Assembly (NCBI GenBank): GCA_016281405.1
Contig: JAEEIO010000117.1
Coordinates: forward strand, 1-32,976
DNA: 32,976 nt
Origin: Clostridiales bacterium
GTDB lineage: Bacteria; Bacillota; Clostridia; Oscillospirales; RGIG5299
Direction of reading: 5' to 3'
Shown here: in pieces, positions 18,411 through 28,293 of the stretch
Numbering within the stretch: the first letter of the stretch is position 1
Layout of the letters: each line of letters opens with the position of its first letter
Program-made: the position numbers and the translations under genes
The notes under the pieces: model-generated
What the model saw: only the letters and a program-made list of their open reading frames with translations
Told to the model about the DNA's origin: nothing
Database searches by the model: none

Positions 18411-18471
18411 AGTAAGTGTATAAGCGTAGGCTAACCGAATACGACAAAATTACTGTTAAGAGGTGTCATTT

Positions 18472-19515
18472 ATGTTAAAAATCGAAACTTCCGGCGCCGG
18501 CTGGTCCTCCTGCCCCGACAGATTCGTAACCGAAGGTTACCGCAAAGGCTTCACCGCCGAACAGTCTCTCGAAGAGCTCTTCAAGATTAAGGGCCTCAAC
18601 GGCTTCCCGCTCTGGTGGGGCTCCATCTCCGAAAAGTTCCCCGAAATGGTCGACGGAGCCCATATCAACGGCGGCTATATCGACCAGTCCAAATGGACCT
18701 TCGACTTCCCGAGCGTCGATTATCTCAAAGAAAAGCTCGCCGCCCACGGCGTCACCATCGGTACCGTCGCGCCCGATACCTACATGAGCCCGATATGGAA
18801 AAACGGCTCCTTCACCAACCGCGATCCCGCCATCAGACGTCTCATGATAGAGCATATGAAGATGGGCATCGACGAAGCCGCCAAGATCCCCGGCTCCGAC
18901 GTCCTTCTCTGGATGGCTCACGACGGCTACGACTATCCCTTCGAGGACGATTACCGCACCCGCTGGAACTGGCTCCTTGAAGGCATCGCCGAATGCTGCG
19001 ACCACAACAAGAACGTCAAACTCACCATAGAGTATAAGACCAAGGAACCCCGCACGAGGCAGTATATAGCCGACTACGGCAAGGCTCTCTTTATCTGCAA
19101 AGAGATAGGCGCCCCTAACCTCGGCGTCGTCGTTGACATCGGCCACTCTCTCTTCGCGGGCGAAAATCCCGCCGAAGCGGTCGACATCGTCAGCTCCTAC
19201 GGCAAACTCCACCACATCCACATGAACGACAACTACAGAAGCTGGGACGACGATCTCTATCCCGGCGCCATCCACTTCTGGGAGAACCTCGAGATGTTCT
19301 ACGTCCTCAATCAGATAGGCTATGACGGCTGGTATACCATCGACGTCTGGCCGACCAGAGTCGACGGACACAAGGTCATCCAGGAAGCGGTCGACCGCAT
19401 CCATATGTTCGACCGTCTCGCCAAAATGCTGCCGCTCAAAGAGATCAAGAGAATGCAGGCCGAAAACGACACCATCGGCATCCAGACTCTCATCCGCGAG
19501 ACCGTCATAAAGTAA
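18472..19515 (+). CDS. Sugar phosphate isomerase/epimerase-like TIM-barrel protein
   Basis: AP endonuclease 2/xylose isomerase-like motifs: LTIEYKTKEPRTRQYIADYGKALFICKEIGAPNLGVVVDIGHSLFAGENPAEAV, HHIHMNDN. ATG at 18472 after AAGAGGTG. Confidence 0.85.
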   Translation: MLKIETSGAGWSSCPDRFVTEGYRKGFTAEQSLEELFKIKGLNGFPLWWGSISEKFPEMVDGAHINGGYIDQSKWTFDFPSVDYLKEKLAAHGVTIGTVAPDTYMSPIWKNGSFTNRDPAIRRLMIEHMKMGIDEAAKIPGSDVLLWMAHDGYDYPFEDDYRTRWNWLLEGIAECCDHNKNVKLTIEYKTKEPRTRQYIADYGKALFICKEIGAPNLGVVVDIGHSLFAGENPAEAVDIVSSYGKLHHIHMNDNYRSWDDDLYPGAIHFWENLEMFYVLNQIGYDGWYTIDVWPTRVDGHKVIQEAVDRIHMFDRLAKMLPLKEIKRMQAENDTIGIQTLIRETVIK

Positions 19516-19533
19516 AATCAAACAATAATCGTA

Positions 19534-19582
19534 TCAAAAAAGCCCAAAATGTATATTTCACGTGCATTTCGGGCTTTTTTAC
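19534..19582 (+). terminator. Intergenic hairpin with T-tract between the isomerase and hydrolase genes
   Basis: AAAAAAGCCC(A)AAATG ... CATTT(C)GGGCTTTTTT. Confidence 0.65.
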
Positions 19583-19600
19583 GGAAAGGAAAGAATTGAT

Positions 19601-22600
19601 ATGGCCGAATTCAAAAAATATATCGCCACCTTCAAAAACCCGCCCAGGGAATTCCGCCCCGTCTCTATGTGGTTCTGGTGCGACGATATGCGCAAGGACG
19701 AGATAACCTTCCAGCTTGAGGAGTTCAAAAAGCAGGGCATGAACGACGTCTTCGTAAACGCCGTCTGGGGCATTGGCGTCGAGTACCTCTCGGACGAGTA
19801 TTTCGAATACGTCAAATACTGTGTCGACGAGTGCAAGCGCCTCGGTATGAACTACTGGATATACGACGAGTTCAACTGGCCCTCGGGCAACGCGGGCGGC
19901 AAACTCTTATCGAAATATCCGTGGGCCGTCGGCAAGCTCCTTAAATGCGAGCAGTTTTACGTCTGGGCGGGCAACTGCGCCGACACCATAAGCACCGGAC
20001 GTCTCGTCGCCGCGCAGATACTCCTCGTCACGCCCGACGGCTTCGACGTCATCGACATAATGGACAAGGTCAAGGTCGAGATAACCGACACGGGCGACAC
20101 CAAGGTCACCTACAGAAATCTCGAATACAACAGCCTTGTAAGAGTCCAGTATTTCTTCTCGATGCCCGACCCGCACATCCTCACGACTTCGGTCTGGTAT
20201 AAATACGCGAATTACGAGGCCGGCTACATCGACACCTTCAACGTGGAGGCTGTCAACAAGTTCCTCGAGCTCACCCACGAGAGATATAAGCAATACGTCG
20301 GCGACGAGTTCGGCAAGACCGTCAAGGGCGTTTTCACCGACGAGATATGCCTCGCTTCGCCATTCTCGATAGGCGAGAACCGCATCCCGTGGAGCGAGCA
20401 TTTCGCCGAAAAGTTCAAAAAACTCAACGGCTACGACATCGTCCCCTACCTCTACTGCCTCTTTAACGGCACCTTGAACAAGCACGACAGAAAGATAAGG
20501 AACGACTATTTCAACACCGCCAAGACCCTCTACCTCGAAAATTTCGTCAAGCCGATGTACGACTGGTGCGATAAAAACGGCATAGCCTTCACCGGCCACT
20601 TCGACGGCGAGGAGTCTCTGACCTGGCACCTCATGCAGTCTGCCGACCTCATCTCCTCCTTCAAGTATATGCACATCCCCGGCATCGACTCTATAGTCCC
20701 GCCCTTCAAGATAGACGACAAGAACTACAACGTCGCGGGCAAGGTGCTTAACTCCATAGCGAAATACTATGACCGCGACCGCACCCTCTGCGAGACCTAC
20801 ACGGGAAGCGGCTGGGACGTCCGTTTCGACACCATGAAAAGAATAGGCAACCGCCTTATGACGCTCGGCGTCAACATGATCCACTATATGGGCGCCTATT
20901 ACTCCTGGGACGGCATGCTCAAGATCGGCCCGACCTCCTATCCGCCGTCGCACGGCTATAACAACCCGATGTGGCAGCACTACGGAAAGCTCGGCGACTA
21001 TTTCGCGAGGATACAGTCGCTTTCCGCCGCCACCAAGGGCGGCTCGAAGGTCCTCTTCATGGCTCCTCTGGTGCAGGCCAAGATTGACCTTGACCTCTCG
21101 AAAAACATATTCAATTATCTTAAAGACGATTTCGCGGTCCGTTATCTCGACGAGATAATGGAAGCGACGGTCACCGCGTCCATGCGCCTCGGCGTCGACC
21201 TCGACCTCATATCCGAGGACGGCGCGCCCGATATAAAGGCAAAAGACGGCCTCATGACCTACCTCGGCCACACCTACGAATATATCATCTTCCCGGCCAT
21301 GGCTTTCATAAACAAAGAGACGGCCGAGCTTATAGCGAGACTCGACAAAGCGGGCGTCAAAATGATATTCGTAAACACCCTCCCCGTCGAAGTCATCGAC
21401 GCCGACGTCCCCGCCCTTAAGGCCGATTTCGGCGGCAAGAGCACGGTCTATGAAAACGACGACGCCTCTTACGAGGTCTTCAAAAAGAAGAACGTCTCGA
21501 TGCTCACCGTCAAGAAACGTCCGCTCGTCCTCGACGGCTACCGCGAGACGCTCGCAAAGGTCTTCAAGCCCGCCGATATAGCCCTTTCGATGAAGTCCAC
21601 GGGCAATATCTTCATAGGCCACCGCGAGAATAAGGACATCGACCTCTATTTCGTCTCGAACGACGACAACGCCTGCAACGAGATGAGAATACCCAAGAAG
21701 CTTCGCGGACTCGAGATACTCTCGCCCGACACCGGCGACCTCAAGACGGTCTATACCGACGGAAACGACATAGTGATACCCTTCGCCCCCTACGAACTCG
21801 TCGTTATAGTCAAGTCGAAGAAGGAGAGCTTCGCAAATATCGCCGACTTCGCGAAGAAGGCGGAGCCCGCCTCGGTGACCGAGCTGGAAAGCGGCTTCAC
21901 CTTCACCCCCGAGAAGGAAAACGCCCTCCGCTGCAGCTGGAAATTCAACTACAAGGGCAAATTCCTCCCCGTCAACTTCTTCTACTTCCCCGAGTGGCAG
22001 CCCAACACCCTCAATATGCCCTACGAACTCGAGTGGGATCTGAAGATAGAGTCGATGCCCGAAATGATCTTCTTCAACGCCGAGATAAAGGGCGTCAAGG
22101 AGATAACGATAAACGGCAAAAAGCTCCCCTTCGAGCGTAATATCCGTATCTGGGGCCTCAATAACTTCCGCGCGGAGGCGACCGAATACTTCAAGGAGGG
22201 CGACAACGTAGTCCGCTTCAAGGCCGTCACTCCCGACTGGGTCGGCATCCACGCGCTCCCGTTCGCCTTCATCACGGGCGACTTCCTCGTCACCCCCGAC
22301 GACGTCGTCCACGCCGTAAAGAGCCGCGCCGTAAAGCTCGGCAGCCTCGACCCGCAGGGCTATAAGTATTTCAGCGGCAACGGCAGTTATAAGGTCGTCT
22401 TCCCCGCGAGGAAGGGCAAAAAGACCTTCGTCGAGCTCGACACGAGAGAGGTCGTCGGCGTAAAGATAAACGGCGTGCTCGTAAAAGAGATTATGTGGCA
22501 GCCGCGCCGCGCCGAGATAACCAAGTTCGTGAAGAACGGCCTCAACGAGCTGGAGCTCGTCATGACCGCCACCTACGCGAACCTCCTTGCCGAACAGCCC

Positions 22601-22642
22601 GCCAACCACGGCATAAGCGGTGTGAAAATTATTACCTATTAA
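19601..22642 (+). CDS. Large glycoside hydrolase, GH106/alpha-L-rhamnosidase-like, apparently cytoplasmic
   Basis: N-terminal PPREFRPVSMWFWCDDMRKDEITFQLEEFKKQGMNDVFV and YWIYDEFNWPSGNAGG resemble GH106-type proteins. C-terminal beta-sandwich-like region. No signal peptide. RBS GGAAAGGAAAG before ATG 19601. Confidence 0.7.
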   Translation: MAEFKKYIATFKNPPREFRPVSMWFWCDDMRKDEITFQLEEFKKQGMNDVFVNAVWGIGVEYLSDEYFEYVKYCVDECKRLGMNYWIYDEFNWPSGNAGGKLLSKYPWAVGKLLKCEQFYVWAGNCADTISTGRLVAAQILLVTPDGFDVIDIMDKVKVEITDTGDTKVTYRNLEYNSLVRVQYFFSMPDPHILTTSVWYKYANYEAGYIDTFNVEAVNKFLELTHERYKQYVGDEFGKTVKGVFTDEICLASPFSIGENRIPWSEHFAEKFKKLNGYDIVPYLYCLFNGTLNKHDRKIRNDYFNTAKTLYLENFVKPMYDWCDKNGIAFTGHFDGEESLTWHLMQSADLISSFKYMHIPGIDSIVPPFKIDDKNYNVAGKVLNSIAKYYDRDRTLCETYTGSGWDVRFDTMKRIGNRLMTLGVNMIHYMGAYYSWDGMLKIGPTSYPPSHGYNNPMWQHYGKLGDYFARIQSLSAATKGGSKVLFMAPLVQAKIDLDLSKNIFNYLKDDFAVRYLDEIMEATVTASMRLGVDLDLISEDGAPDIKAKDGLMTYLGHTYEYIIFPAMAFINKETAELIARLDKAGVKMIFVNTLPVEVIDADVPALKADFGGKSTVYENDDASYEVFKKKNVSMLTVKKRPLVLDGYRETLAKVFKPADIALSMKSTGNIFIGHRENKDIDLYFVSNDDNACNEMRIPKKLRGLEILSPDTGDLKTVYTDGNDIVIPFAPYELVVIVKSKKESFANIADFAKKAEPASVTELESGFTFTPEKENALRCSWKFNYKGKFLPVNFFYFPEWQPNTLNMPYELEWDLKIESMPEMIFFNAEIKGVKEITINGKKLPFERNIRIWGLNNFRAEATEYFKEGDNVVRFKAVTPDWVGIHALPFAFITGDFLVTPDDVVHAVKSRAVKLGSLDPQGYKYFSGNGSYKVVFPARKGKKTFVELDTREVVGVKINGVLVKEIMWQPRRAEITKFVKNGLNELELVMTATYANLLAEQPANHGISGVKIITY

Positions 22643-22650
22643 TAAAATGT

Positions 22651-22684
22651 AAAAAAGCCTCCGAGTGAACGGAGGCTTTTTTTA
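22651..22684. terminator. Bidirectional terminator between convergent genes
   Basis: AAAAAAGCCTCC-GAGTGAAC-GGAGGCTTTTTTTA. Confidence 0.85.
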
Positions 22685-24676
22685 TTTGTATAATGCGAGT
22701 ATCCTCTCGCACTCCTCTTCGCTTTCCCCGACCGCCGTCACCGTCACTGACGGACGGAACCGGTCGAACCTGAGAAACGCCCTTGCCGTCCCCGTCCCCG
22801 CCGTCTCGGCCGCCGTCAGCCTCGCTACGGTTTTCGCCGCCCGCTTTGCGGGAAAACTCTCTTTTTTTATAAAATACCTCGGCGTCGCGGCGGCAAGCGA
22901 AAATACGGGTCTCAAAAGCGCCTTCGACGCCTTCATGACGGACGCTATCTGAAAAGCGGCGTCGTAAAACAAGGTCGCCTTTTCGCCGCCCCTGATTATC
23001 CTCCCGCCCGTCGCACGCTCCAGAAGCGCGTCTGCGAGCGGATAGTTTTCGGGCAGATAAAGCGTTTTTTCGGTCGCCAAAATGCAAAACGCCGCGAGCG
23101 ACGGCGTCCGCTCCTCTTTCATATATATACCTTTTTCATCCGAAAGGGAAAAGGAGACGCCGTCCGCCCCGACATAAAACGACGCGCCGCCCTCGCCGCC
23201 GAGCCGCCCCTCGTAGACTCTTCGCAGATACTCCGACTCCGAAGACACCTCGAACCCTTCCGTCGGCGCCCCGAAGGAGGCCACCTTCGCGCCGTAAATA
23301 AGCCCTGCCGCATCGGTAAGGTCTTTTACGGCGCCGCTTTCCCGCCGCGGCTCCTTCCTTTCGACCTCGTCGAAGCCGTCCGAAAATAAGGGACCGTCAG
23401 CGCAGAAATAAACTCCGCTTTCGGCCCCCACGGCGCCGCATAGGACTCTCCAAACGCACTCGGGCGCGCCTTTGATAATGACCGCCGCCGCGCCCGCCGC
23501 CGCGGCTCCGTCCGCAAAAAGGCAGGCCGACTTTACCTCCTCTTCGCCCGCGTCCGACCCGACGGCGATGACCCGCCGCCCCTTTCCCGCCTTCTTGCCG
23601 AGCGCGAAAACCTCGTCTCCCGAAAGAATAAGGCTCCCCGAGCCTACGCTTCTGAAATCGGGGACGTGAACGCCCCGCAGAATAACCTCGCCGCTTTCGG
23701 CCTCGGCGTCAAACCCGATGACCGCGTCCTCGCAAACGCGCGCTCCGTCGCCCACCGTCGCGCCGTCCAGGATTATGCCGCCGTCAATTTCGCAGTCCTT
23801 CCCGATGGTGACGCCGTCGCCTATCACCGAGTTCCTGACGGAGCTCCCGCCGCCGACCGCCGCGCCTTCGCCGAGCTGCGTAAACGGCCCGACCGCCGCG
23901 TCCGCGGCGATTTTCGCGTTTTCCGCGTAGCAGGGAGGAATTACCCCGCGCCTTTTTTTCTCACCGCCGCCGTCCTTCATAATGAAAAACGCCGCGGCCT
24001 CGCGATAAGACGGCGCGTCTTTTATAAACCGCGCCTCTTTTCCTGTGTCGAAGGCGAAGACGGCGAGCTTTTCCGCCGCCGCGCCGACCAAATCGTCGAT
24101 CCCGCCGCAGCTTTCCCCCGCGGCAAGCCCCAAAACTCGCGTTCCGAGGACGGCCGCGCCGCACCCGACGAGATCGCTGTATCCGTGATCCAAAGAAGGC
24201 GGCGCGAAAACTCCTTCGACCCTCTTCGCGCCCGAAATCGAATATACCCTGCTCTCGGGCTCGTAAGCCTCCGTCACCGCCGCCGTCACGTCTGCCGCCG
24301 CCTCCTTGTGAAAGTCGAGCATGGACTTTATCGTCGCCGCCGTCGTAACGCACCCCTCCTCGAGCAGAATAAGAGGCTCCCTGCCGTTTCTCAAAAGGGC
24401 GTCCCTGTATTCCCTCAAAAACGCGAGGGCGCTTTTTCCTTTGGGAAGAGTGAAAGACACGCGAAAGGCGCCCGACTTCCTTTTCGCAAAATAGTCCGAA
24501 AGCCCCTTGTCCTCCTCGGCAATGACCGTCGCCGCCGTCGCTCCCGCGCCCATAAGGCAAAGGAGCTGACGCTCGATAAGCGCCGTCCCCGCGAATTTGT
24601 GAAGCGAAAGCGGCCTTCTCGCCGCGATAGGCCTTAAAGCCGCCGCCGTCTTTCTTATAATAATAACGCCCGTCAT
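22682..24676 (-). CDS. Sugar nucleotidyltransferase/hexapeptide-repeat/phosphomannomutase-like chimera with apparently degenerate active sites
   Basis: N-terminal RPLSLHKFAGTALIERQL resembles NTP_transferase. Middle hexapeptide turns: AVGPFTQLGEGAAVGGGSSVRNSVIGDGVTIGKDCEIDGGIILDGATVGDGARV. C-terminal part aligns by eye with PGM/PMM domains (RRVIAVGSDA...FADGAAAAGAAAVIIKG..., LPRYF-like TPRYFIKKE). Confidence 0.7.
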   Translation of the reverse strand: MTGVIIIRKTAAALRPIAARRPLSLHKFAGTALIERQLLCLMGAGATAATVIAEEDKGLSDYFAKRKSGAFRVSFTLPKGKSALAFLREYRDALLRNGREPLILLEEGCVTTAATIKSMLDFHKEAAADVTAAVTEAYEPESRVYSISGAKRVEGVFAPPSLDHGYSDLVGCGAAVLGTRVLGLAAGESCGGIDDLVGAAAEKLAVFAFDTGKEARFIKDAPSYREAAAFFIMKDGGGEKKRRGVIPPCYAENAKIAADAAVGPFTQLGEGAAVGGGSSVRNSVIGDGVTIGKDCEIDGGIILDGATVGDGARVCEDAVIGFDAEAESGEVILRGVHVPDFRSVGSGSLILSGDEVFALGKKAGKGRRVIAVGSDAGEEEVKSACLFADGAAAAGAAAVIIKGAPECVWRVLCGAVGAESGVYFCADGPLFSDGFDEVERKEPRRESGAVKDLTDAAGLIYGAKVASFGAPTEGFEVSSESEYLRRVYEGRLGGEGGASFYVGADGVSFSLSDEKGIYMKEERTPSLAAFCILATEKTLYLPENYPLADALLERATGGRIIRGGEKATLFYDAAFQIASVMKASKALLRPVFSLAAATPRYFIKKESFPAKRAAKTVARLTAAETAGTGTARAFLRFDRFRPSVTVTAVGESEEECERILALYK

Positions 24677-24743
24677 AAAATCACCCGCATTTTTTGTTTC
24701 GGGACTATTATTGACGGCCTTCAGGCGACGTATTCGGCGCGAT

Positions 24744-24772
24744 TTGCCAAATTTTCAAAAAAAATATATAAT
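24744..24772 (+). promoter_or_regulatory. Predicted promoter for the sigma factor operon
   Basis: TTGCCA (24744-24749), 17-nt spacer, TATAAT (24767-24772). Confidence 0.55.
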
Positions 24773-24835
24773 TTATGTAAGATTTTCGTTTTTTAAACGA
24801 CTATATTATCAAACGGATCGGCGAGAGGCGAGAAT

Positions 24836-25384
24836 ATGAACGACGAAAAGCTCTTAAAACTGATTCGCGAAAACCCTGACGAGGGCGCGAAGAAGCTCAT
24901 AAGGCAATATGCGGACCTGGTTTTCGGAATTGTGAAAACCAGGCTCGACGGAGTGTGCGGCAAAACGGAGCAGAAGGATCTGACAGCAGACGTCCTGACG
25001 GACTTTCTGCAAAGCGCGGGCAAATTCAGAGGCGAGACCTCGATAAAGAATTATCTTTGCCTCATAGCCCGTAACGCCGCCGTCGACCTCTACCGCAAAA
25101 AGCTTCCCGAAACAAGCCTCGAGTCCGAAACGCTCACGCTCGATCTCAAAGCGGCGACCGACGTCGAGGCGGAGGCCGAAAGAAAGCGGCTCTTATCGGA
25201 GATCACCGACGCCGTTTTGAAGTTGGGCCACCCCGACAGCGACATCATTTTTGCCAAATACTGGTTCGGAGAAAGCACCAAAAGCGTCGCCGCGAGGCTT
25301 CGGATGACGGTTTCGGCCGTCGACACGAGGGCAGCGAGGGCGATAGCTATCATCAGAGAAAGGTTCGGAGATGAACGAAAATGA
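24836..25384 (+). CDS. RNA polymerase sigma factor, sigma-70/ECF type
   Basis: Region 2-like DVLTDFLQSAGKFRGETSIKNYLCLIARNAAVDLYRKK. Region 4-like ITDAVLKLGHPDSDIIFAKYWFGESTKSVAARLRMTVSAVDTRAARAIAIIRERF. Confidence 0.85.
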   Translation: MNDEKLLKLIRENPDEGAKKLIRQYADLVFGIVKTRLDGVCGKTEQKDLTADVLTDFLQSAGKFRGETSIKNYLCLIARNAAVDLYRKKLPETSLESETLTLDLKAATDVEAEAERKRLLSEITDAVLKLGHPDSDIIFAKYWFGESTKSVAARLRMTVSAVDTRAARAIAIIRERFGDERK

Positions 25385-26649
25385 AAACAGATCTTGAAAA
25401 GCTTTTAAGGACGGCCGACGCCGAAAGCCTCGCGCCCGCCTTAAACGCCGTAAAACACCAAAAGCTCGATAAAGAGACAAAAGCCGCCCTTACCGCGGCG
25501 GTCTCGCCCACCGTGAAGACAAAGGCTCCTGTCGAGCCGAAAGGCGTGAAAAAGCCCGCTTTTAATTTTTTAAAGCCCGCCGTGGCCATAGCCCTTTGCG
25601 CCGTCCTCGCGGCGGGGGTGGGCCTCGGCGTGGTCGGAGGACTAAAAGACGGAATAAGAAACGGAAACGGCTACGGCGGCTTGCCCGTCTCGTCGGACGT
25701 CGGCGCGACGTCGGCGACCCCGTCAATGGGCGGAACCGAGAGCGCCCCGCCGTCGTCGAATAGCGACCCGACCCAGAGCGGCACGGCGTCACAGCCGGTA
25801 AACGTGATATCCGTTGAGTTGCCGGGGTATAGCAAAAACGCGCTTGTCTATCTCGTCGGCGGTCCCGGCGACGTGATACTCGACAGCGATGCTTACGTCA
25901 TCCGCTTCGTAGGCTACGATTTTGACGCCGAGTTCGGCCCGCGTATCGATTTTATAATTAACAATAAAACAAAAAAGAATATTATGATCCATTGTGTGGA
26001 GACTTCCGTAAACGGCATTTCTCTGCCGTGCAATATGGGCCTCGACTATCCCGAAACGGGGTTTGAAATAATGGTCGGCCCCGGCGAGACTGAATTCAAC
26101 GTCTTCGCCGACAGCCAGGATCTTAATAATTACGGAATAAAGAGCGTCGCCGAGGTGGGAACGAAGATTGCAATAAGCGAGCTCGTTGCCGATTGGGAAG
26201 ACAATATCCTCGCAGTTTCGCTCGAGACGGTATGCGATAACGAGGGCGTTATAGCGAACGAGGTGGAAATGACCGAGGGCGCCGTCACAATAACGGAGGG
26301 CGACGTGGGCATATACGTCGACGAGCTCGATAATTACGGCAAATCGTTCCCGCTTTTGAAGGCGTATGTTAAAAACAACACCGCCGGGAAGATAAGAGTG
26401 ACCGCGAAAGTCTTTGATTGCGAAGCCAATACGGTCGACCTCGAGTGCGATGTGCCCGCCGGCATGACAGGTATAAGGTATTTTAGCTTCAGCAACTGGT
26501 ATCTTGACGAAAAAACGGGTGAATATTGCCGCAGAGAGGAGTCTCCCGCCCCCGCCCGGTTCAAACTTTCTTTCGTCGTTTCCGACGAAAACGGCAGCGT
26601 TCTCTTCGAAACGGAAAAAACCGCTTTCGACTTCGAAGAACTTGAATAA
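25381..26649 (+). CDS. Putative anti-sigma factor/membrane-anchored extracytoplasmic protein
   Basis: ATGA overlap with the sigma gene. Single TM segment PAVAIALCAVLAAGVGLGVVGG followed by a Ser/Thr/Pro-rich linker and a beta-rich domain. Confidence 0.65.
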   Translation: MKTDLEKLLRTADAESLAPALNAVKHQKLDKETKAALTAAVSPTVKTKAPVEPKGVKKPAFNFLKPAVAIALCAVLAAGVGLGVVGGLKDGIRNGNGYGGLPVSSDVGATSATPSMGGTESAPPSSNSDPTQSGTASQPVNVISVELPGYSKNALVYLVGGPGDVILDSDAYVIRFVGYDFDAEFGPRIDFIINNKTKKNIMIHCVETSVNGISLPCNMGLDYPETGFEIMVGPGETEFNVFADSQDLNNYGIKSVAEVGTKIAISELVADWEDNILAVSLETVCDNEGVIANEVEMTEGAVTITEGDVGIYVDELDNYGKSFPLLKAYVKNNTAGKIRVTAKVFDCEANTVDLECDVPAGMTGIRYFSFSNWYLDEKTGEYCRREESPAPARFKLSFVVSDENGSVLFETEKTAFDFEELE

Positions 26650-26750: not shown

Positions 26751-27017
26751 ATGAAAAAAGTTATAGGCACCGTCATAATCGCCGCCTTGCTTCTCGTTTT
26801 GTTTCTGCCCGTTAAAGCGGGAGACTATGACGACGGCGGCACGCTTGACTATCGCGCACTTACATACAGATTAGTCGTCTGGAACAGGTTTACGACCAAA
26901 ACCGATGAAGACGGCTCGCAAAGCAGCTACAAGTATCATAATATTTCAGTTTTCTGGTTTCCCGATAGTTTCAAAAAAATCGACGAACTGTGGGAAATCG
27001 AAATGGGACGTTTATAG
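26751..27017 (+). CDS. Small secreted or membrane-anchored protein of unknown function (88 aa)
   Basis: N-terminal hydrophobic segment MKKVIGTVIIAALLLVLFLPVKAG followed by DYDDGGTLDYRALTYRLVVWNRF. GGAAG RBS. Confidence 0.75.
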   Translation: MKKVIGTVIIAALLLVLFLPVKAGDYDDGGTLDYRALTYRLVVWNRFTTKTDEDGSQSSYKYHNISVFWFPDSFKKIDELWEIEMGRL

Positions 27018-27024
27018 AATTAAG

Positions 27025-27060
27025 AAAAAACAGCACCGCATTTTGCGGTGCTGTTTTCTT
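27025..27060. terminator. Bidirectional terminator between convergent genes
   Basis: AAAAAACAGCACCGCA-TTT-TGCGGTGCTGTTTTCTT. Confidence 0.85.
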
Positions 27061-27067
27061 GTTAGGG

Positions 27068-27493
27068 TCAGCGTTTCGTCACGGTTATCGAGAGGCCGTG
27101 CTCCGACATCAGACTGCTGTTGTATTCGAGGTCGTATTTCACCGTGATCTTTCCGCCCTTTTCGCCGAGCCGGCAGGAGAGGTCTTTGGTGTTGACGCCG
27201 AAAACGAGGTCGCCCGCCTCGGTGCCGAGCTGCATCATATGCCGCTCGTTTTTTCGGAGCATCATAGTCTCGGATACGCCGCCCACCCGCTTCAGAGAAA
27301 GCGAATCGGCGGTGGCGCGAATGACCGTTTCGGTCTTTTTATTGCTTTCGTCGGTTTCGTCGTAATAGATGAAATAAGCGCCGTTTTTTATTTCGAATTC
27401 GCCGTCGGTGCGGAAATCTATGACGTTTTTCCCGCCCTCCGACTTTTGGGTGCCTTTTATGGCGATATATGCCTTGCTTTTCATTTGCTCCAC
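27068..27493 (-). CDS. DUF1934/YwiB-like beta-barrel protein
   Basis: IAIKGTQKSEGGKNVIDFRTDGEFEIKNGAYFIYYDETDE...LRKNERHMMQLGTEAGDLVFGVNTKDLSCRLGEKGGKITVKYDLEYNSSLMSEHGLSITV. Confidence 0.75.
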   Translation of the reverse strand: MEQMKSKAYIAIKGTQKSEGGKNVIDFRTDGEFEIKNGAYFIYYDETDESNKKTETVIRATADSLSLKRVGGVSETMMLRKNERHMMQLGTEAGDLVFGVNTKDLSCRLGEKGGKITVKYDLEYNSSLMSEHGLSITVTKR

Positions 27494-27495
27494 CG

Positions 27496-28293
27496 TTAAA
27501 AAGTGATTTTTGTTATCTCGCCGTCTATGTCGCGCCCCAAAAACATCTTCGCGACCTTCGAGAAGCCGTCGGCCGCGTCGCTCACGAAATAGCGGTTCGC
27601 GCCGTGACGGCCGTCCGAAAGCAAGCCGTTTTCGGTAAGATGATCCTTCAGATGTAAGGCCGCCTCCTTGCCGCTGTCTATAAGGGCGACGCCGGGCGCC
27701 AGATCGGCAATTAAGTCTTTTATGACCGGAAAATGGGTGCAGCCGAGTATCAGGGTGTCGACGCCTTTATCGAGGACGGGAGCGAGATAGTCTGCCGCGA
27801 CGAGGCGGGTGACCTTGTTGTCCCTTTCGATGTAGCCGTTTTCGACAAGCGGTATAAATAGCGGACAGGCGGCGGAAAACACCTCGGCGTCCGACACCTC
27901 GGCGACTGCCTTTTTGAAGGCGCCGCTTTTATGGGTCGCGCCCGTCGAAATGACGCCGATGCGGCCGTTTCTGGTCGTCTCGGCCGCCTTCTTTGCGGCG
28001 CTTTTGACGACGCCGATTATTTTAACGTCGTAGTCGCTTTTGATAGTCTGAAGCGCGACCGAGCTGACGGTGCCGCAGGCGACCATTATCGCCTTGGGGT
28101 TATATTTCATAAGGAAGTCCATATCCTCCCTCGCGTAGGCGAGGATGGTCTCGGGCGAGCGGGTGCCGTAGGGGACGCGGCCGGTGTCGCCGAAATAGAC
28201 TATCTCCTCGTCGGGGAGGATAGCCGACAGCTCCTTGACGGCGGTGAGGCCGCCGATGCCGCTGTCGAATACGCCTATGGGACGGTTATCCAT
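27496..28293 (-). CDS. murI: Glutamate racemase
   Basis: MDNRPIGVFDSGIGGLTAVKEL, YFGDTGRVPYGTRS, VACGTVSSVAL, LILGCTHFPVI. A GTG three codons upstream (28302) is an alternative start. Confidence 0.95.
   Translation of the reverse strand: MDNRPIGVFDSGIGGLTAVKELSAILPDEEIVYFGDTGRVPYGTRSPETILAYAREDMDFLMKYNPKAIMVACGTVSSVALQTIKSDYDVKIIGVVKSAAKKAAETTRNGRIGVISTGATHKSGAFKKAVAEVSDAEVFSAACPLFIPLVENGYIERDNKVTRLVAADYLAPVLDKGVDTLILGCTHFPVIKDLIADLAPGVALIDSGKEAALHLKDHLTENGLLSDGRHGANRYFVSDAADGFSKVAKMFLGRDIDGEITKITF

Follow-up and report, generated by a model that had tools for sequence, protein, structure and literature searches.

Proteins in which a nucleotidyltransferase (NT) domain and a left-handed beta-helix (LbH) form a non-catalytic body have mostly been described in partnership with an active paralog. 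One of these is GMPPA, a paralogue of GMPPB that is without activity and works as an allosteric feedback inhibitor (PMC11228364). In the Bacillota, the inactive NT-LbH subunit GlgD modulates the active ADP-glucose pyrophosphorylase (PMC9093745). The nearest characterised architecture to the protein described here is SCO1388 of Streptomyces coelicolor, in which an NT domain like that of GDP-mannose pyrophosphorylase is fused to a phosphomannomutase (PMM)-like domain. SCO1388 was reported as probably adding little GDP-mannose pyrophosphorylase activity, so that chimeras of this sort could well have some other role, and it keeps the NT signature motifs (PMC5982138), whereas the protein described here has lost them.

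The gene lies in a window of 32,976 nucleotides, by which we mean the whole stretch of DNA that was analysed. It is reasonably probable that it encodes a pseudoenzyme that lost catalysis in both halves and was kept as a scaffold or sensor. The gene and its domains are laid out as follows:

22682..24676, minus strand: putative pseudo-NT/left-handed beta-helix/PMM-like chimera, an uninterrupted ORF of 664 amino acids and the sole family member in the genome
23957..24676, minus strand: NT domain, residues 1-240, with a fold resembling GDP-mannose pyrophosphorylase
23624..23956, minus strand: left-handed beta-helix (LbH), residues 241-351, Pfam PF25084/PF00132
22685..23623, minus strand: PMM-like domain, residues 352-664, without catalytic loops, from hhalign to GlmM and fold match

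The initial annotation had given the coordinates, strand and intact 664-codon ORF correctly, and its domain order of NT, LbH and PMM was confirmed by Pfam (for the LbH), by PDB sequence and fold matches and by profile comparison. Only the beta-helix was a confident Pfam match, with the NT domain (PF00483) falling below the cut-off at E 0.29. A PDB sequence search matched GDP-mannose pyrophosphorylases to residues 2-325 (E 8e-10) and 3-338 (E 3e-9), and a profile of 29 relatives (A2) matched the whole protein, with E 3e-31 at positions 14-364 and 1.6e-10 at 391-731. Scored against profiles of intact relatives, the NT, LbH and PMM-like parts gave 32.8, 95.4 and 48.8 bits, as compared to 3.0, 5.2 and 7.7 bits in 200 shuffles. 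The AlphaFold models took intact relatives as input, so that their good fold is partly borrowed and they can be read as consistent with these folds but not as proving them: the model of the window protein (mean pLDDT 82.7) best matched plant and human GDP-mannose pyrophosphorylases and eIF2B subunits, the human GMPPA/GMPPB structures being among the best, and a separate model of residues 344-664 (pLDDT 87.5) best matched phosphoglucomutase, phosphomannomutase and GlmM structures in the PDB. For the PMM-like part, Foldseek gave E 1.6e-16 to a phosphoglucomutase and hhalign gave 99.4% against GlmM.

The relatives make up a family of NT-LbH-PMM-like chimeras, represented by 125 full-length members that are nearly all from one order of the Bacillota, to judge by named records the Oscillospirales, and the window protein belongs to it by full-length profile similarity. 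Intact members of that order (L010, L013 and L005) share with it full-length homology, the domain order and the absence of the PMM loops. They have an intact NT site and about 720-790 amino acids, whereas the window protein has 664 amino acids and retains 2 of the 18 scored active-site residues. Its PMM-like part has about 315 aligned residues versus about 400 in relatives, making it about 80 shorter. The motifs replaced in its NT domain are:

24620..24655, minus strand: RKTAAALRPIAA, replacing the GGxGTRLxPLT loop
24347..24367, minus strand: LLEEGCV, replacing SGD, with the metal-binding Asp lost
24188..24208, minus strand: FAPPSLD, replacing EKP, with the substrate-binding Lys lost
24020..24040, minus strand: KEARFIK, replacing YWxDIG, with the second metal-binding Asp lost

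Loss of the GGxGTRLxP loop had been noticed in the initial annotation, and residues 8-16 indeed read RKTAAALRP. The losses extend beyond its list, as the K of PKP became L, SGD became EGC, EKP became APP, NTG became GCG and WxDxG became AxFxK. Where an active mannose-1-phosphate guanylyltransferase has the GxGxRx(n)K loop and EKP, the window protein has RKTAAALRP and APP. It retains 10 of 38 NT residues that are near-invariant among 29 relatives and has replaced the other 28, a table biased by the choice of those relatives with a pattern requiring GG...RL.P; the 125-member set was gathered by profile without that filter and brought in further degenerate members. In NTP_transferase enzymes, the lost residues contact the nucleotide, the metal and the sugar-phosphate. 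Aligned in this way, the window NT half has lost residues for all these contacts and, because of their known roles, can hardly make an NDP-sugar.

In the PMM-like domain, hhalign placed the following at the positions of the catalytic loops:

23372..23410, minus strand: YFCADGPLFSDGF, at the ASHNP phosphoserine loop position
23129..23173, minus strand: VGADGVSFSLSDEKG, at the DGDxDR metal loop position
22733..22762, minus strand: RFRPSVTVTA, at the RxSGTEP phosphate loop position

When the C-terminal profile was aligned with the two GlmM proteins of the genome, YFCADG fell on ASHNP, VGADGVSFSLSDEKG on DGDxDR...DEKG and FRPSVT on RPSGTEP, the same positions at which the initial annotation had seen these three losses. 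Profile alignment places all four losses where they had been read by eye. The window protein belongs by profile and fold similarity to the PMM/PGM superfamily and lacks the phosphoserine, DGDxDR and RxSGTEP loops of the active enzymes. The same is true more widely, with no canonical ASHNP or RxSGTEP loop in any of the 125 full-length members, DGDGDR strings in only two of them (near-identical proteins, with the string alone in each) and all three loops absent from two members from further off in the phylum. With the ASHNP and RxSGTEP loops missing family-wide, PMM catalysis is, on the evidence of the alignments, an ancient loss and a trait of the family, not peculiar to the window protein. All four motif losses are thus real, but the three in the PMM half are ancestral and uninformative on this gene. 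Automatic annotation as "mannose-1-phosphate guanylyltransferase/phosphomannomutase" is therefore probably mistaken about the PMM half family-wide and about both halves in the window protein. The two GlmM genes of the genome (contigs C92 and C141) are distinct, motif-complete and 50% identical, and perhaps reflect the 6% contamination estimate of the assembly.

Active-site residues of the NT domain were kept at 18 of 18 in 103 family members, at 17 in 16 members and at 16 in one, while five members keep 12 or fewer. The window protein lies outside the typical intact range of 17-18 residues (119 of 125 members) and is a degenerate offshoot. The other four degenerate members are L208 (12/18), L186 (11), L206 (10) and L037 (5), each the sole family copy, without a chimera paralog, in its genome (G172, G288, G360 and G323, respectively). 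Milder changes, at the PKP lysine, were seen in L022 and L212. A tree made from the LbH and PMM-like columns only gave at least four separate NT losses, even when only strongly supported branches were trusted, and tight groups of intact sisters enclose two of the degenerate members, L037 (with L160) and L208 (with L188, L190 and L193).

The loss was largely confined to one domain. NT identity to intact relatives was 19-36% in the five degenerate members versus 45.9% (sd 2.6) in the family, whereas their LbH identity (22.6-27.1% versus 26.3%, sd 2.9) and PMM-like identity (17.7-22.2% versus 21.5%, sd 2.4) stayed close to the family values. The window protein stands at 27.1% and 17.7% in these two parts, and the beta-helix described earlier as well preserved is indeed at the family's normal conservation. 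Similarly, L037 differs from its close sisters in the NT domain (33-35% versus 46-50%) and is about equal to them in the LbH and PMM-like parts. Drift of the NT domain alone, with the LbH and PMM-like domain retained, is the pattern expected from losing one function and keeping another. For degenerate L208, which is not the window gene, dN/dS was 0.08-0.23 where computable, a rough support given that dS was saturated, as it also was in the L037 pairs. No close homolog of the window gene was found in about 1,250 genomes of its phylum, a scan of genome contigs with the window protein turned up no relative, and the same-genus genome and the order, class and phylum samples yielded nothing stronger than 29% identity over the N-terminal half, so that the window gene has no direct dN/dS.

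The initial annotation had also proposed a regulatory subunit of an active paralog, and this found no support. The assembly (G000; 1.7 Mb, 208 contigs, 89% complete, 6% contamination) holds no second chimera family member. Any partner would therefore be a different kind of sugar nucleotidyltransferase; three other candidates lie on contigs C151, C196 and C62, and a heteromer with one of them is possible. With respect to GMPPA and GlgD, the residue losses and the fold place the presumably inactive NT-LbH body of the window protein with theirs, but the active paralogous partner in the same genome is missing from G000. GMPPA lacks a PMM-like domain and acts on an active subunit paralogous to it, and the GlgD model gave the window protein, with its PMM-like domain, 23.5 bits versus a cut-off of 236.6.

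The locus was compared with G001, the only same-genus genome used, and the features that matter outside the gene are:

18463..26649: stretch absent from the matching place in G001, by genome comparison
24836-26649: ECF sigma factor, then a 422-aa ORF without Pfam match, divergent from the pseudoenzyme gene across a 159-bp gap
27068-27493, minus strand: DUF1934 protein adjoining murI (PF09148, E 1.2e-29)

The absent stretch holds a TIM-barrel isomerase-like gene, a GH106 gene, the window gene, the ECF sigma factor and the 422-aa ORF, whereas the flanking genes lie in matching blocks. Contamination as the source of the contig was rejected, as murE, an FAD protein, o452, murI, o14-o16 and others match one contig of G001 in such blocks at 55-85% identity. 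A plasmid origin was likewise left without support when tblastn in plasmids with the window protein gave no match. The ECF sigma factor and the 422-aa ORF, both of poor codon-usage fit, are possibly a sigma/anti-sigma pair, and the plus-strand ORF 26990-27499 is probably an antisense shadow of the DUF1934 gene. Elsewhere in the family, 49 of the 67 loci with enough downstream sequence (e.g., L061 and L062) have RNase J as the next gene downstream on the same strand, which one would not expect beside a gene for a sugar-nucleotide protein. Of the four other degenerate members, three keep that position (L186, L208 and, by contig coordinates, L037). Most intact family loci precede RNase J, unlike the window gene. 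The place before RNase J is taken in G000 and G001 by a transaldolase-like gene, named from sequence, and the window gene is therefore not at the family's usual address.

The proposed history begins with a Bacillota family of NT, LbH and PMM-like domains in which, by sequence, the PMM half was already non-catalytic. In the window lineage, the NT half lost its active-site residues as well. The reading frame nevertheless remained open, and the other two domains kept evolving near the family's usual rate, which suggests that the protein was probably kept for a non-catalytic task. The beta-helix may hold an oligomer together, and the dead NT and PMM-like pockets could respond to ligands or offer surfaces for protein binding, as in GMPPA or GlgD. 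Since both of these are allosteric regulators with dead NT-LbH bodies, a non-catalytic scaffold or sensor is favoured. To judge from its sequence, the window protein is quite probably catalytically dead yet maintained; that it is specifically a regulator or sensor is a tentative analogy on which we are somewhat doubtful. Of the non-catalytic role suggested in the initial annotation, the loss of both active sites, the kept helix and the probable maintenance of the gene stand, and the subunit of an active paralog does not.

Some observations count against maintenance and suit relaxed selection, and they would equally fit a decaying pseudogene that lost its function recently and drifts with no stop yet by chance. 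The codon usage, which had been called normal, is the worst fit among 25 window genes (mean log synonymous frequency -1.207, versus -0.75 to -1.16 in the others), GC2 is unusually high at 0.51, the branch is the longest in the tree at 1.7, the PMM-like part is shortened and the gene is absent from G001, in a variable stretch. Nevertheless, the position-specific GC of 0.62/0.51/0.72 is retained, the LbH shows the same conservation as in intact members and the PMM-like part falls only a little short of the average. In a simulation that used the window sequence and substitutions only, an unconstrained frame stayed open in 5.5% of cases after 0.05 substitutions per site and in 0.3% after 0.10. A free frame is thus lost at amounts of change far below what the 28 replaced near-invariant NT residues need. 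Decay is therefore unlikely, and less likely than a maintained non-catalytic protein.

Hexapeptide proteins include acyltransferases, and a changed enzyme could have a new activity at the LbH, or in the former NT pocket by means of different residues. No other part is as well conserved as the LbH, which also has matches among acyltransferase LbH profiles such as LpxD and GlmU, and wholesale replacement of the active-site loop could reflect new chemistry. The best match of the LbH, however, is the eIF2B/GMPP-type helix, which serves assembly in known members, and with no close homologs no conserved new motif is definable, so that we regard a changed enzyme as rather improbable. Although the domain order would suit a normal bifunctional mannose-1-phosphate guanylyltransferase/phosphomannomutase whose catalytic residues had been misaligned by eye, profile alignments confirmed the positions of the losses, no canonical loop stands anywhere in the protein, and this scarcely credible reading was refuted on sequence.

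The whole family might also be mainly non-catalytic, with the LbH and the dead PMM-like domain doing its work and NT catalysis dispensable and repeatedly lost. This is a long shot, and it is drawn from hints: the RNase J neighbour, a GdpP-type neighbour and GlmM-CdaA fold matches. A GdpP-type c-di-AMP phosphodiesterase gene adjoins some family loci (L064:5454-7469, with a matching cluster upstream of others), and complexes of GlmM with the c-di-AMP cyclase CdaA (7olh and 9g69) are among the fold matches of the PMM-like domain, which makes a c-di-AMP link through a GlmM-like dead domain possible. Sugar-phosphate supply might then be linked to RNase J-dependent RNA turnover, or to c-di-AMP signalling via the GlmM-like surface.

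No description of the degenerate family was found in the open-access papers searched. Pseudo-nucleotidyltransferases were already known, and this family adds the repeated, domain-specific loss of the NT site next to a PMM-like domain. The maintained pseudoenzyme favoured here would be a bacterial pseudo-NT that is alone in its genome and fused to a second dead enzyme domain. As the first active site was lost at least four times in the family and the remainder was kept, the task of that conserved remainder becomes the testable point.
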